Source: Micromonospora sp. NBC_01796 (GTDB lineage Bacteria > Actinomycetota > Actinomycetes > Mycobacteriales > Micromonosporaceae). Taken from it: a stretch of DNA of 64,000 nt. This document shows, one piece after another, positions 52,668 through 62,149 of the stretch; position 1 is the first letter of the stretch, and every line of letters starts with the position of its first letter. The DNA lies in the NCBI RefSeq assembly GCF_035917455.1, contig NZ_CP109078.1, positions 6,308,001 to 6,372,000 on the forward strand, given 5' to 3'. The notes under the pieces were generated by a model, which saw nothing but the letters and a program-made list of their open reading frames with translations, was not told the DNA's origin and searched no databases. The position numbers and the translations under genes are program-made.

Positions 52668-52719
52668 GTCAGCCCGCCTCAGCGCGTGTCAGCCCCGCCT
52701 CAGAACGGCCTGCCAGGGT
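52668..52719 (+). promoter_or_regulatory. SARP-type promoter: four direct repeats plus -10
   Basis: Heptamers GTCAGCC (52668), CTCAGCG (52678), GTCAGCC (52688) and CTCAGAA (52699) repeat in one orientation with periods of 10, 10 and 11 bp. Exactly 8 bp after the last one comes CAGGGT (52714-52719) as a -10. An 8-bp gap between SARP repeat and -10 is the arrangement described for ActII-ORF4- and DnrI-type promoters. The regulator gene lies immediately to the left, the controlled gene at 52831. Confidence 0.7.
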
Positions 52720-52830
52720 GCCATCACCGCAGGCGGTCATGGTGCTGCCGCGATGGGCCGAGCCCCGGCCCGCCCGACGTCCGGCGTGCCACGCCGGACG
52801 GTTTCTCGATCGAGGGGACAACCAAGGGTC

Positions 52831-53274
52831 ATGATCAAGTCCAGGGTTCTTCGTACGATGTCGACTGTCGTGGTGACGGCTGCGGTGCTCGCCGTCGCCA
52901 CCGTCACCGGTGGTGCGGCTCCCGCGTTCGCGGCCACCGCCACCTTGTCGATCTTCACCGGGTGTCAGACCGACGACGGCCGTTACTACGACTACGTGCT
53001 CAGGGTGCAGGGCACCACCCGTTACTACCCGGACGGGATGCGGGTCGATGTCCGCCTCTGGGGCGACGACGAGTGGTCCGACGACCTCCTCGGCGGGCCG
53101 TACTCCAGCTATTCCGAGTCGAGCGGGTCCTTCTCCACCGCGGTCTGCATGAACAGCAGCACCCTCAACGAGGACATCGGCCAGGACGAGATCTACGCCG
53201 GGGTCCGGGTGTACGACCATGCCGGTGTGCAGCGGGAGACCGCCGAGACGAACCGGATCCACAACTACTTCTGA
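52831..53274 (+). CDS. Small secreted protein next to the SARP gene
   Basis: 147 residues with a Sec signal (VVVTAAVLAVATVTGG, cleavage probably after AFA) and a mature part of about 110 residues rich in Tyr, Asp and Ser (DDGRYYDYVLRVQG, PYSSYSESSGSFS). It has two Cys and looks like an all-beta domain. No family is recognised. AAGGG precedes the ATG at 52831. Its promoter has four SARP-type repeats, so it is a likely direct target of the adjacent AfsR-like protein. Confidence 0.75.
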   Translation: MIKSRVLRTMSTVVVTAAVLAVATVTGGAAPAFAATATLSIFTGCQTDDGRYYDYVLRVQGTTRYYPDGMRVDVRLWGDDEWSDDLLGGPYSSYSESSGSFSTAVCMNSSTLNEDIGQDEIYAGVRVYDHAGVQRETAETNRIHNYF

Positions 53275-53318
53275 TCACCCGCGGGCGGTGCACCACGACG
53301 TCCGCGTTTCGGGCCGAC

Positions 53319-53350
53319 GTCAGCGCCGCCTCAGGCCCGGCGGCCATTGT
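53319..53350 (+). promoter_or_regulatory. SARP-type promoter: two direct repeats plus -10
   Basis: GTCAGCG (53319-53325) and CTCAGGC (53330-53336) are 11 bp apart, followed after exactly 8 bp by CATTGT (53345-53350). Sequence and geometry match the set at 52668-52719. Transcription would begin near 53357, about 40 bp before the next gene. Confidence 0.65.
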
Positions 53351-53398: not shown

Positions 53399-54004
53399 AT
53401 GGTACGGAACCGAAGAGCGCGACTGCTCGCGTTGGGCGTAGCCGTGGCGGTGCTGCTGTCGGCGCCGGGATCGGCATTCGCCGAGGACAACCAGCCCGGG
53501 CCACCGAAGGCGACCGACTGTGCGGTCGAGAACACCGACGACAAGGGCAACGTCACCGTCACCTACGTCCCCGAGGGCACCACGTTCGGGCTGTTCCACT
53601 GCCGGGGCGGAGACTGGCACTTCGGGTGGTACCCGTTCGACTCCGAGGTGCAGGCCGTCGCCGAGGTGATCACCGTGGACCCCAAGGGCGTGGCCAGCGT
53701 CGACGAGGCGGTGATCGACGGACGCGCGGGGGACATCAGGGCAGGGGAGATCAAGTACATCCTCGACGCGGCCGGGGTTCCCGACCCGGTGTCGCCGGAC
53801 CAGGCAGTGGTCTTCTCCGAAGACGGCAAGGAGCTCTACACCGCACGGGACCTGACCGAGAAGACGACCATCGGTGACCTCGCGGTGAAGGCCGGCACCG
53901 AGGCACCCACGGTGGAGTTCTCGAATCGGAAGAGGCCGAGGATCACGATCACCATCAAGTGCAAGCTGTTCCCGCCGTGGTGCTCGATCACCATCCGGTG
54001 GTGA
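53399..54004 (+). CDS. Second secreted protein behind a SARP-type promoter
   Basis: 201 residues; Sec signal LALGVAVAVLLSAPGSAFAE, then an acidic mature part (VENTDDKGNVTVTYVPEG) and a short basic, hydrophobic tail ITITIKCKLFPPWCSITIRW. Four Cys are in the mature chain. I recognise no family. GGGAGGAAACA is a strong ribosome binding site for the ATG at 53399. It shares promoter layout with the preceding secreted-protein gene although the two proteins are not obviously related. Confidence 0.75.
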   Translation: MVRNRRARLLALGVAVAVLLSAPGSAFAEDNQPGPPKATDCAVENTDDKGNVTVTYVPEGTTFGLFHCRGGDWHFGWYPFDSEVQAVAEVITVDPKGVASVDEAVIDGRAGDIRAGEIKYILDAAGVPDPVSPDQAVVFSEDGKELYTARDLTEKTTIGDLAVKAGTEAPTVEFSNRKRPRITITIKCKLFPPWCSITIRW

Positions 54005-55017: not shown

Positions 55018-56625
55018 TCAGGAGCAGTGCTCGAAGGGGCTGTTGTAGCTCGCCCCGCCGGCCGACCCGCCCCACTTGACGCAGGTGCCGGCGGCCTGCG
55101 CGCGTACCGGCCCCGCGTAGTACGCGAAGGAGCCGCTGTCGGTGCTGCGGGGTCGGCCCTGCACCTCCAGGTACGCCGACACCGCCGACCCGGTGCCGAC
55201 CGAGGTGGTCTTCATGGTCACCGTGCAGTTGTAACCGTTGCCGTTGTGGTAGAGCAGGTACACCTTGCCGTACTGGGTCCCGTCCGTGCCGGTCAGCGTC
55301 GCCGAGTCGACAACCTGGTATCCGCTGCCGCAGACCTCGACCGGGGTGTGCGGGTTGCCGGCGGCCGGGGCCTGGGTGGTCTTCGTGGACGGTTTCGGGC
55401 TCGCGGGCATGGTCGGCCCGGTGGTCGGGGGCGCTGTCGCCGGTGCGGTCGCTCTGCCGGGTGTCACCGCCGGCCGGCTCGCCCCGCCGGTCGCCGGTGC
55501 GGTGGCCTCGACCGGCGGGGCCGGGTCGGCACCGGCGGCCGATGCCTCGACCGGCACATTCGCCACCGGCTGGGTCGGTGCCGGATTCTCCTCGGGCGAA
55601 GAGGGGAGCAGGGCGACCAGGCTGACCAGCCCGATCACGACCGCCGCCGCGACACCGCCGAGCAGGAGGTTGCGTCGCCGGTTGCCACCGGCGGCGGGCA
55701 TTGCGACCGGGGCCGAGGGCGGGGGCGGGTCCGCCGGAGGGGCCGACGGGACGGTGGTCGAGTTGTCGGCAGCGCCGATCGGCAGGGACAGCGGCGCGGT
55801 GCCCTGGGTGGCGCGGGCGGCGTCGGCGAAGGCGGCGGCGGTCGGGAACCGGTCGGCGGGCGCCTTCGCCAGTGCCCGGCTCACCAGCGCGGCCACCGCC
55901 GCCGGGATCTCCTCCGGCAGCGCGGGCGGCTCCTCCTGCAGGTGCCGGGTCACCACCTCGATCGGGTTGTCGCCGGTGAACGGCGGCCGGCCGGTGAGGC
56001 AGCAGTACGCGACCGCCCCGAGGGCGTAGATGTCGGTCGCCGCCGAGACCGGTCGACCCGCCGCCTGCTCGGGGGCCATGTAGTGCGCCGACCCGAGGAC
56101 CATGTTGGTGGCGGTGATGCTGGTCAGGTTCGCCGACCGGGCCACGCCGAAGTCGACGAGGACAACACTTCCGTCCGGCTGGACCAGCAGGTTGCTCGGC
56201 TTGACGTCCCGGTGCACGATGCCGGCGGTGTGCGCGACGTGCAACGCCTGCGCGGCCTGCGTCACGATCGACATGGCCTGTGCGATGTCGAGTTCGGCGG
56301 TCTCCCGGATCCACGTCGACAGCGGTACGCCCTCGATGTACTCCATCACGAGGTAGTCCACCCGGCGGCCGTCGACGACCGCGTCCTCGCCGTAGTCGTA
56401 GATCTGCACGATGCCGGGGTGACGCAGCGCGGCCATCATCCGTGCCTCGGTACGGAACCGGGTGATGAACTCCGCGTCCGAGACGAGTGCGGGTAGCAGC
56501 ACCTTGACCGCGACCTTGCGTCTGAGCAGGACATCCGTGCCCCACCAGACATCGCCCATGCCACCGGTGGCGACACGTTCGTTCAACTGGTAACGACCAC
56601 TGAGCACGATCCCCCGAGACAGCAC
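55018..56625 (-). CDS. Membrane Ser/Thr protein kinase with SapA-like extracellular domain
   Basis: 535 residues. The kinase domain covers about 10-275: glycine loop ERVATGGMGDVW, VAVKVL with the Lys, HRDVKPSN catalytic loop, VDFGVA and the GSAHYMAPEQ activation-segment end. A Pro-rich juxtamembrane region, one helix (LLLGGVAAAVVIGLVSLVAL) and a Pro/Ala/Thr stalk follow. The last 100 residues (CGSGYQVVDS to SYNSPFEHCS) resemble, from memory, spore-associated protein A rather than PASTA repeats. The kinase would sense an outside cue and phosphorylate cytoplasmic targets. GTG start. Confidence 0.9.
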   Translation of the reverse strand: MLSRGIVLSGRYQLNERVATGGMGDVWWGTDVLLRRKVAVKVLLPALVSDAEFITRFRTEARMMAALRHPGIVQIYDYGEDAVVDGRRVDYLVMEYIEGVPLSTWIRETAELDIAQAMSIVTQAAQALHVAHTAGIVHRDVKPSNLLVQPDGSVVLVDFGVARSANLTSITATNMVLGSAHYMAPEQAAGRPVSAATDIYALGAVAYCCLTGRPPFTGDNPIEVVTRHLQEEPPALPEEIPAAVAALVSRALAKAPADRFPTAAAFADAARATQGTAPLSLPIGAADNSTTVPSAPPADPPPPSAPVAMPAAGGNRRRNLLLGGVAAAVVIGLVSLVALLPSSPEENPAPTQPVANVPVEASAAGADPAPPVEATAPATGGASRPAVTPGRATAPATAPPTTGPTMPASPKPSTKTTQAPAAGNPHTPVEVCGSGYQVVDSATLTGTDGTQYGKVYLLYHNGNGYNCTVTMKTTSVGTGSAVSAYLEVQGRPRSTDSGSFAYYAGPVRAQAAGTCVKWGGSAGGASYNSPFEHCS

Positions 56626-59428: not shown

Positions 59429-61879
59429 TCAGGACGGTGAATTGGCGTCGGGGCGCAGTTTCGTCCACACCTGCTCGGCGTCCGGGTGGCCGAGCCGGTC
59501 GAGGATGTCGGCGGCCTGCCGCCAGGCGGAGCCGGCCCGATCGACGTCGCCCACGCCGTGGTGGGTGTCGCCGAGGTGCGTCAACGTGGTGGCTTCGAAG
59601 TAGCGCTCCCCGGCCTCCTGCCACAGCGCGAGCGCGTGCTCGTAGCATTCGACGGCCTCCCGGTGGTGCCCGAGATGGTGGTGCGCGTAGCCGAGGCTGT
59701 CCCAGGTGTGCGCCTGCCAGTACCGGTTGCCGGTCCGCTGCTGCTCGGCGAGGGCCCGCTCGCAGTAACCGAGCGCCCGCCGGTGGTCGCCGAGCTGGAT
59801 GTGGTACCAGCCGATGTTGTTCAACGCGTTGGCCGCGCCGTGCCCGTGACCGGCACCCTCGAACAGGTCGAAGGCCCGTTGCGCGTGGTCGAGCGCCTGC
59901 CGGTAGTCGCCCTGGCGCTCGGCCAGGATGCCGAGGTTGAGCTGCGTACGGGCACTTCCGACGTCGTCGCCGAGCTGGCCGTACAGGTCCAGGGACTGGC
60001 GCAGATGGGCACCGGCCTCGTCGTAGCTCCCCAGGCGCAGGCAGGCCACCGCGCGGTTGCGGTGGACGCGCGCCTGGCCGAGCCGGTCACCGGACCGGGT
60101 GGCGGCCTCCAGGGCGAGCCGCTGTACGCCGGACTGGTCCTGCCATGCCCCCAGCCGGTCCAGGTAGGTGTTCAGCGTGCAGGCGAGCTGCCAGGCGTGG
60201 GTCTCGAAACCGGTGCCGGCGGCCAGTGCGGTGGCGGCCAGCAGCGCCCGGTGTTCGGCACCGAGACAGGCCCACGCATGATCACGGTCGCGCAGCTCGA
60301 TCGTCGCCACCCCGTCGTGCACGGCGGGTACGTCGATCGAGTCACGATGGTGGTAGAGCAGCAGGTCCGCGCCGTGCGCGGTGTGCAGGTAGTGATCGAA
60401 CAGCCGGGTCAGGGCGTCGCGCCGATCCTGGTCGGGATCGTTCGCGTCGACCTGCTCGAGCGCGTACGCCCGCAGGAGGTCGTGCAGGGCGTACCGGCCG
60501 GGCAGGGGCTCGGCCAGCAGGTTCGCCCGGGTCAGGTTGGCCAGCGGTGCCCGTACGTCCGCGACCGGAAGGCCGGCGAGACTGGCGGCGGCCGGCACGG
60601 ACAGGTCCGGGCCGGGGTGCAGCCCGAGCAGACGGAACAGCCTCGCGGTCGCCGGGTCCAGACCCCGGTAGGACCAGGAGAGGACCGCCCGTACGTCGGC
60701 ACCGGCCTCACCACCGGTGAACCCGTCGAGGCTGCCCCGCGTGCCCTCCAACTCGTCGGCCAGCCTGGCCAGCCCGAAGTCCGGATGGGTGGCGGCCCGT
60801 GCGGCCACGATGGACAGCGCCAGCGGCAGCCCCGCCGACGACGCGACGATCCGGTCCACCGCCGCAGGCTCCCGGGCCACCCGCCGGTCGCCGAGACGGC
60901 GGGACAGCAGCTCCAGCGACTCCGCCGCCGGCAGCAGGTCCAGGAGCAGCGGATGCGCACCCTCCGCCGCGACCAGCCCCGGTAACTGGTTGCGACTCGT
61001 CACCACCACCAGGCAGCCGGACGAACCGGGCAGCAACGGACGTACCTGGTCGGCGTCACGGGCGTTGTCCAGCAGGACGAGCATCCTGCGCCCCACCAGC
61101 AGGCTCCGGTAGAGCGCCGCCTGCGCGGTCAGCCCCGCCGGGACGCGCTCGGCGGGCACACCGAGGGCCTCCAGGAAACCCCGCATCGCCTCGGCCGGGC
61201 TCATCATCGACCCGGTGGCGTCAAAACCGCGCAGGTTGACGTAGAGCTGCCCGTCCGGGAAACGGTCCGCCACCCCGTGCGCCCAGTGCAGCGCGAGGGC
61301 GGTCTTGCCGACCCCGGCCGTCCCGCCGATCGCCGAGATCAGCACCGTACCCGGTGCGCCGGCCGACTCCGCGAGCAGTTCGGTCAGGGCGGCGACCTGC
61401 GGCGCCCGTCCCGCGAAGTGCCGTACCGCCGCCGGCAACTGCCGGGGGACGATCGACCCGTCGCCGATCCGTGGGTGCTCAGGGGCCGACGGCTTCGGCT
61501 GCTCGGCTCGCGAGGCACGGCGACCCACCTCGGTGTGCGCCGCACCGCTGAGCCGCTCGCCTGCCCGGACACCGTCCGCGGCCCGCAGCAACCGCCAGTG
61601 CTCGGCGTCCCACCGGGCCAGGTCGGTCAGCTCGGCCGGCAGCGGTACGCCGACCTGCTCGGCGTGGGCGGAGCAGGCACTGACGTACGCCGCCACGAAG
61701 TGCCACTCGGGCAGTGACTTGGCATTGAGCTTGTCGCTCAGGGTGGAGCGGGCGAGCGGCTGCTGCAACCGGGCGGCGACCGCGACCAGTTCGTTCAGCG
61801 ACGGCGCACCGGCGAGTTGCCGCAGCCGCCTGAGTTCGTCGACGAACTCCAGCAGTGCCTCCCGGCCGGCTTCCCCCAT
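59429..61879 (-). CDS. HTH-NB-ARC-TPR regulator (STAND ATPase)
   Basis: 816 residues. The N-terminal 90 residues look like a helix-turn-helix found in front of actinomycete NB-ARC proteins (LNELVAVAARLQQPLARSTL). The NB-ARC ATPase has Walker A GGTAGVGKT, Walker B RMLVLLDNA and an ARC region ARLFRLLGLHPGPD. The C-terminal half is TPR. The ATPase and TPR halves closely parallel those of the AfsR-like protein at 49739. The ATG at 61879 follows GGAGGTAGG, which rules out the longer frame. Confidence 0.88.
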   Translation of the reverse strand: MGEAGREALLEFVDELRRLRQLAGAPSLNELVAVAARLQQPLARSTLSDKLNAKSLPEWHFVAAYVSACSAHAEQVGVPLPAELTDLARWDAEHWRLLRAADGVRAGERLSGAAHTEVGRRASRAEQPKPSAPEHPRIGDGSIVPRQLPAAVRHFAGRAPQVAALTELLAESAGAPGTVLISAIGGTAGVGKTALALHWAHGVADRFPDGQLYVNLRGFDATGSMMSPAEAMRGFLEALGVPAERVPAGLTAQAALYRSLLVGRRMLVLLDNARDADQVRPLLPGSSGCLVVVTSRNQLPGLVAAEGAHPLLLDLLPAAESLELLSRRLGDRRVAREPAAVDRIVASSAGLPLALSIVAARAATHPDFGLARLADELEGTRGSLDGFTGGEAGADVRAVLSWSYRGLDPATARLFRLLGLHPGPDLSVPAAASLAGLPVADVRAPLANLTRANLLAEPLPGRYALHDLLRAYALEQVDANDPDQDRRDALTRLFDHYLHTAHGADLLLYHHRDSIDVPAVHDGVATIELRDRDHAWACLGAEHRALLAATALAAGTGFETHAWQLACTLNTYLDRLGAWQDQSGVQRLALEAATRSGDRLGQARVHRNRAVACLRLGSYDEAGAHLRQSLDLYGQLGDDVGSARTQLNLGILAERQGDYRQALDHAQRAFDLFEGAGHGHGAANALNNIGWYHIQLGDHRRALGYCERALAEQQRTGNRYWQAHTWDSLGYAHHHLGHHREAVECYEHALALWQEAGERYFEATTLTHLGDTHHGVGDVDRAGSAWRQAADILDRLGHPDAEQVWTKLRPDANSPS

Positions 61880-62149
61880 ACCGCACCTACCTCCGGCACC
61901 GGTTCCGATCTTCGAACGCCCCACCCAGGGTAGCCGGATGAACTCATGCTGATCGATGTCGTCCGGGTCGCGGCCGACTTTGACAACAACCTGCTCCGGG
62001 AAACCTACCGAGGCTGGCGATCCTGACCTGCGCATTCAAGCTTCCCTGCAGGAGCGCCCAGGTTCGCTGCGTCACGCTGTCGGCACCGGAGCCTGCGGCA
62101 AGTAGTGGAGTCCGGTCAGGATCGCTCGTTTCACCTGAAGGGACTGCGC

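Follow-up and report, generated by a model that had tools for sequence, protein, structure and literature searches.

Does a repeat array between a gene for an AfsR-like regulator and a gene for a small secreted protein act as an operator, and if so, for which activator and which target? The question is raised by a locus in the 64,000-nucleotide stretch of Micromonospora sp. NBC_01796 DNA analysed here (hereafter the window, Table 1). Large SARPs are numerous and have been discussed mainly as antibiotic activators. A preliminary description of the locus read one array as a SARP-type promoter through which the AfsR-like protein would control the secreted protein. We identified a second array, which that description did not contain, before a second gene for a putatively exported protein, and we consider it probable that both arrays are SARP-activated promoters driven by the adjacent AfsR-like protein, with gene 2 as the conserved target and array A and gene 1 as a lineage-restricted addition.

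Table 1 Features of the locus in window coordinates
Feature	Position	Strand	Description
AfsR-like large SARP, 945 aa	49739..52576	−	OmpR-type DNA-binding domain, BTAD, NB-ARC, TPR
Operator array A (predicted)	52668..52705	+	four nTCAGnn heptamers, spacings 10, 10, 11; TCAG cores start at 52669, 52679, 52689, 52700
−10-like CAGGGT of array A	52714..52719	+	8 bp past last heptamer
Gene 1, 147-aa protein with signal peptide	52831..53274	+	signal peptide by eye from translation
Operator array B (predicted)	53309..53334	+	TCGG, TCAG, TCAG at 53309, 53320, 53331
−10-like CATTGT of array B	53345..53350	+	10 nt after last TCAG
Gene 2, 201-aa protein with signal peptide	53399..54004	+	conserved partner of AfsR-like regulator
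Membrane Ser/Thr kinase	55018..56625	−	Pkinase 1.1e-44
Second NB-ARC–TPR protein	59429..62035	−	without SARP domain

The AfsR-like regulator and arrays A and B

The regulator has the complete domain set of the large, AfsR-type SARPs, namely an OmpR-type DNA-binding domain (Trans_reg_C, 1.1e-9), BTAD (2.3e-38), NB-ARC (8.6e-7) and TPR (TPR_12, 1.6e-23), and its alignment with AfsR in PDB entry 8K60 spans most of its length (E=6.6e-117). Judged by its sequence, the protein is AfsR-like and not AfsR itself, because its 525.8 bits against the NCBIfam AfsR equivalog model NF053617 lie far under the cut-off of 1430. AfsR contacts DNA through Q48, W74, P79, T88, S91, R92, R94 and K95 (PMC10936776). 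By a hand count on the 8K60 alignment, W74, P79, S91 and R94 are retained in the regulator, whereas R takes the place of Q48 and T88, Y that of R92 and D that of K95. The base-contacting residues T88 and R92 correspond to R67 and Y71, and in this the window regulator is unlike AfsR, since both differ.

The window contains two further genes of note. One, close to the regulator, encodes the membrane Ser/Thr kinase, with a C-terminal part that by eye is likely extracellular; AfsR is phosphorylated by Ser/Thr kinases of this kind (PMC10972967). With tblastn, no homolog of the kinase was found in ten ortholog stretches, most of which have short flanks. The other encodes the second NB-ARC–TPR protein, 54% identical to regulator residues 264–941.

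In published SARP promoters, direct repeats are spaced 11 or 22 bp apart, and 8 bp separate the 3′ repeat from the −10 element (PMC10936776, PMC4393881). Array A consists of the heptamers GTCAGCC, CTCAGCG, GTCAGCC and CTCAGAA. The preliminary description had reported four TCAG-cored heptamers with a 10–11-bp period that end 8 bp before CAGGGT, and both observations are borne out, the latter in the nTCAGnn register, in which the last heptamer occupies 52699–52705 and the gap 52706–52713, whereas other registers give a different gap. CAGGGT is a weak −10, but its A and T positions, and its distance from the repeats, are common to the homologous sites. The 10-10-11 spacing is slightly irregular against the published 11 or 22 bp, with only the last pair following the rule; units of 10 bp have a precedent in the secondary operator of PimR (PMC5930380).

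The pattern TCAGN6-7TCAGN6-7TCAG has three matches in the 8.56-Mb genome, two of which are array A, as compared with one match for a backwards-pattern control. On the + strand of the window there are two overlapping three-unit chains, whereas 300 Markov-1 resamplings give a mean of 0.003 for each strand and never more than 1. Array A is therefore unlikely to be a chance occurrence, given this mean and a single other three-unit place in the genome.

Gene 1 begins 111 nt downstream of the weak −10, a distance that, like this −10 and the 10-bp spacings, speaks against array A as a SARP promoter. The earlier placement of the array before a secreted-protein gene is right, the signal peptide being recognized by eye. 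Folded as a single sequence, the gene 1 protein is predicted to be all-beta (pLDDT 72.7), with a best PDB match at E=0.012. Matches to it occur in 2 of 61 genomes, its own counted, and no relative was found among the genome contigs searched, for which reasons gene 1 was rejected as a conserved target. In a locus of another genome (G150, L162:3670-3756), the tail of a gene-1 homolog abuts a regulator truncated at residue 154. What is missing there comprises the DNA-binding domain, the promoter region and the greater part of gene 1. In genome G167, a regulator ortholog with 74% identity is accompanied by three TCAG units at exactly 11 bp, directly before a gene-2 ortholog, and gene 1 was not found at that locus. 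From this arrangement, gene 1 looks like a lineage-restricted insertion.

Array B lies before gene 2. Its spacing is exactly 11-11, and in the nTCAGnn register it too ends 8 bp from its −10-like element. It is the sole genome-wide match to the three-unit pattern at one mismatch or fewer. With up to two mismatches, the genome has 18 matches as opposed to one for the backwards pattern, all 18 located within or extending across an ORF of 60 aa or more; the majority resemble chance or PHO-like sites.

This resemblance bears on a reading of the repeats as PHO boxes or another OmpR/PhoB-type operator. The published PHO box of Streptomyces coelicolor follows the same 11-bp logic, with direct repeats of GTTCACC units, and three of the two-mismatch matches (L140, L143 and L150) are PHO-box-like and precede exported proteins, two of which (L140 and L150) are phosphatase-like by eye. 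GTTCACC units are not found in the window arrays, the cores of which are TCAG, and most units have G after TCA or CCA where the published PHO consensus has C. The spacing of 8 bp before the −10 agrees with the published SARP rule, and arrays before gene-2 homologs accompany SARP-domain regulators, as described below. We regard a PHO-type operator as highly improbable.

Gene-2 homologs and their putative operators

The family of gene 2 is an unnamed one. No NCBIfam model matches it over its cut-off, the best Pfam match among 16 members has E=0.0097, and a comparison with the PDB gave no match better than E=0.26. The fold predicted from the gene 2 sequence alone (pLDDT 33.8) is not usable. A family profile run against 394 genomes of the class returned the own genome and two weak, short matches.

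Within the taxonomic family, the gene 2 protein searched alone gives 41 matches in 40 of 354 genomes, the own genome included. Operators were examined for 39 of these matches, leaving out those in G184 and G034, which are among the weakest; at these two, no SARP-domain ORF was found in 12–13 kb and gene 2 had no tblastn match at 1e-3. An array score of at least 11 out of 14 is reached within 150 bp upstream in 37 of the 39 homologs, the own one included, compared with 0.56% of shuffles, by a score that has the fixed repeat-to-−10 distance built in. Scores of 12, 12.5 and 13 are reached by 35, 26 and 23 homologs, respectively (null for 13, 0/7800). The extrapolated start of the protein match follows the end of the −10 at a distance of 18–48 nt in all 37 array-positive homologs. 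The two homologs with scores under 11 are L111 and L113; a third, L040, scores exactly 11, although each of its three units reads TCCG.

An intact SARP-domain ORF lies at most 2 kb from 37 of the 39 homologs, in divergent, convergent or co-directional orientation relative to gene 2. The regulator is reduced to a 64-residue match to its C-terminal end in G296 (L318, 19 kb examined) and to its C-terminal half in G377 (L303). The 39 homologs are not independent events, because 25 of them are co-directional copies from a single genus (g4); by eye, they fall into approximately eleven groups, each with an array in at least one member. Because of the array scores and the intact SARP neighbour, each found for 37 of the 39, the arrays are very probably SARP-activated promoters of this unnamed exported protein family. 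The SARP-type promoter proposed in the preliminary description is thus strongly supported, both by the comparison of related genomes and by published SARP operators. Its proposed target, a small secreted protein, holds in part: gene 1 is lineage-restricted, and the evolutionarily stable target appears to be the next gene, gene 2, with an array of its own.

The repeats upstream of gene 2 might instead have arisen by chance, or might belong to a conserved hairpin or terminator and not to an operator. At loci with gene 2 on the downstream side of the regulator (L109–L133), the operator overlaps a G+C-rich inverted repeat with the third unit in its loop. All seven stem pairs are kept in 8 of 17 operators examined, including L111 and L113, in which the TCAG of the third unit is lost. 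Five others (L110, L123, L128, L130 and L133) show the opposite, keeping the third TCAG and the −10 with only four or five of the seven pairs, and the array is retained at divergent and convergent loci. As shuffles rarely reach the array score, chance fares no better, and we find this explanation scarcely credible in either form.

TCAG arrays also occur apart from gene 2. A scan of 926,384 bp of AfsR-like-homolog loci, some of them fetched via gene 2 or the pattern and so not independent, contains 30 distinct arrays compared with 2 in a Markov control, and none of the arrays lies inside the regulator ORF. The proteins encoded after arrays at such loci also include a PLAT-domain protein of the own genome and a ricin-type lectin. 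The strict exact pattern occurs in 137 of the 354 family genomes, and the backwards control, which does not keep dinucleotide content, has one match among those listed. The own genome (G000) has no strict match, as neither array A nor array B fits the strict 11-11 pattern. The genes that follow strict arrays in other genomes are mixed, with 18 of 45 signal-peptide-like by a crude rule, so that exported proteins are not the only ones to stand behind TCAG arrays in general. At six places (L164, L169, L171, L173, L201 and L212), strict arrays precede genes that are ABC-transporter ATPase-like by eye. Four strict arrays lie within approximately 18–27 kb in each of G068:C68, G213:C1 (near 2.50–2.53 Mb) and G222:C1 (near 2.83–2.85 Mb); these groups are possibly SARP-controlled gene clusters.

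Identity of the activator

The activator of arrays A and B could be the adjacent AfsR-like protein, as the preliminary description held, or another SARP of the genome, with the adjacent gene a bystander or one input among others. The genome offers candidates for the second role: of 12 matches to the regulator at E≤1e-100, nine are paralogs that reach its N-terminal part, and the nearest of these has a TCAG pair upstream of its own secreted-protein gene; the divergent partner of this nearest paralog is the PLAT-domain protein mentioned above. In both G296 and G377, the regulator remnant is devoid of a DNA-binding domain, yet gene 2 persists next to it together with the array. Around arrays outside the window, 12 of 20 array regions have a SARP-domain ORF no more than 10 kb away, as opposed to 2 of 20 control regions from the same genomes, the array regions having been picked from listed places, mostly on large contigs; one of the 12 positives (L209, 34 bits) is probably an ordinary OmpR-type regulator. 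The other eight regions have no SARP within that distance.

A prediction set in advance concerned the recognition helix, namely that SARPs with the helix Q.[HN].SYLR would carry arrays within 3 kb. This prediction failed: arrays were found at one of nine such SARPs and at one of 51 others, three of which have no readable helix, and in 1 of 180 Markov control regions. The sole positive of the helix type (L247) consists of units in tandem, possibly a minisatellite. A relaxed helix rule, applied post hoc, gives 2 of 9 versus 1 of 51. The comparison is not a clean one, as five of the nine (L287–L291) had been picked for array-free 1.5-kb flanks and the array at L251 was known beforehand. Given this failure, it is the gene-2 family that the array tracks and not the helix, and linkage is the basis on which the activator is identified.

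That linkage is close: of the 39 gene-2 homologs examined, 37 have a regulator with an intact SARP domain no more than 2 kb away, and nowhere in the own genome is the pattern matched better than at this locus. We judge control by a different SARP to be unlikely. The part of the earlier reading that names the adjacent AfsR-like protein as activator is supported by the intact regulators and weakened by the helix result, and on balance this protein is the likely activator.

Proposed mechanism and comparison with known SARPs

With the adjacent AfsR-like protein as activator, its protomers would occupy the TCAG repeats next to one another, along one face of the helix, and the repeats would take the place of a usable −35. 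By analogy with the structure of AfsR with RNA polymerase (PMC10936776), the SARP protomers would hold sigma region 4 above the missing −35, and RNA polymerase would be recruited to the weak −10 eight bp downstream of the repeats. Transcripts would then begin near 52726 and 53357 and encode the two predicted exported proteins. As in AfsR, gating of the activator by nucleotide and signal is probably the task of its NB-ARC and TPR parts.

As a speculation that we hold to be quite unlikely, the AfsR-type STAND regulator and its dedicated exported protein might form one signalling module, in which the exported protein or its product feeds back to the NB-ARC/TPR part. If so, a regulator class of the antibiotic type would provide an extracellular protein family with a self-sensing switch, and the exported protein would report outside conditions or cell density. 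The operator itself is of a known kind, and what appears to be new is that a large SARP is paired with an exported protein family of its own; we found no description of such a module in the open-licence PMC papers searched. The fixed geometry (TCAG, 11 bp, TCAG, 11 bp, TCAG, 10 nt, nAnnnT) is a signature by which possible targets can be searched for across one family, and an exported family that nearly always adjoins such a regulator makes a role of STAND-type SARPs outside antibiotic clusters testable.

Among the closest published systems is that of PapR2, a SARP of Streptomyces pristinaespiralis with the heptamer consensus 5′-GTCAGSS-3′, which the window arrays share together with the nTCAGnn register (PMC7040171). 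In EMSA, PapR2 is reported to shift redP and redQ of S. lividans and to give no shift on the weaker pliA site (PMC7040171). Unlike PapR2, which activates antibiotic clusters, the SARP neighbouring the arrays is a large one with NB-ARC and TPR, and its presumed targets are exported proteins. PimR, a SARP-LAL, is similar in having three heptamers and a secondary operator with 10-bp repeating units, but its heptamer is CGGCAAG and its operator is described as not overlapping the −35 (PMC5930380). The oxy promoters of OtcR likewise have 11-bp repeats with the 3′ repeat 8 bp before the −10, and differ in the repeat, such as CGGTCGAAG, and in belonging to an antibiotic cluster (PMC4393881).

AfsR and afsS in Streptomyces coelicolor are a further close parallel. 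The AfsR repeat, CGTT(T/C)ATCGNN, is unlike the repeats here, and AfsS is sigma-factor-like (PMC10972967). As with the window locus, a SARP–NOD–TPR protein is encoded beside a small target gene, and the promoter of that gene has 11-bp repeats that overlap the −35, and 8 bp lie between the 3′ repeat and a weak −10, CACTGT (PMC10936776).
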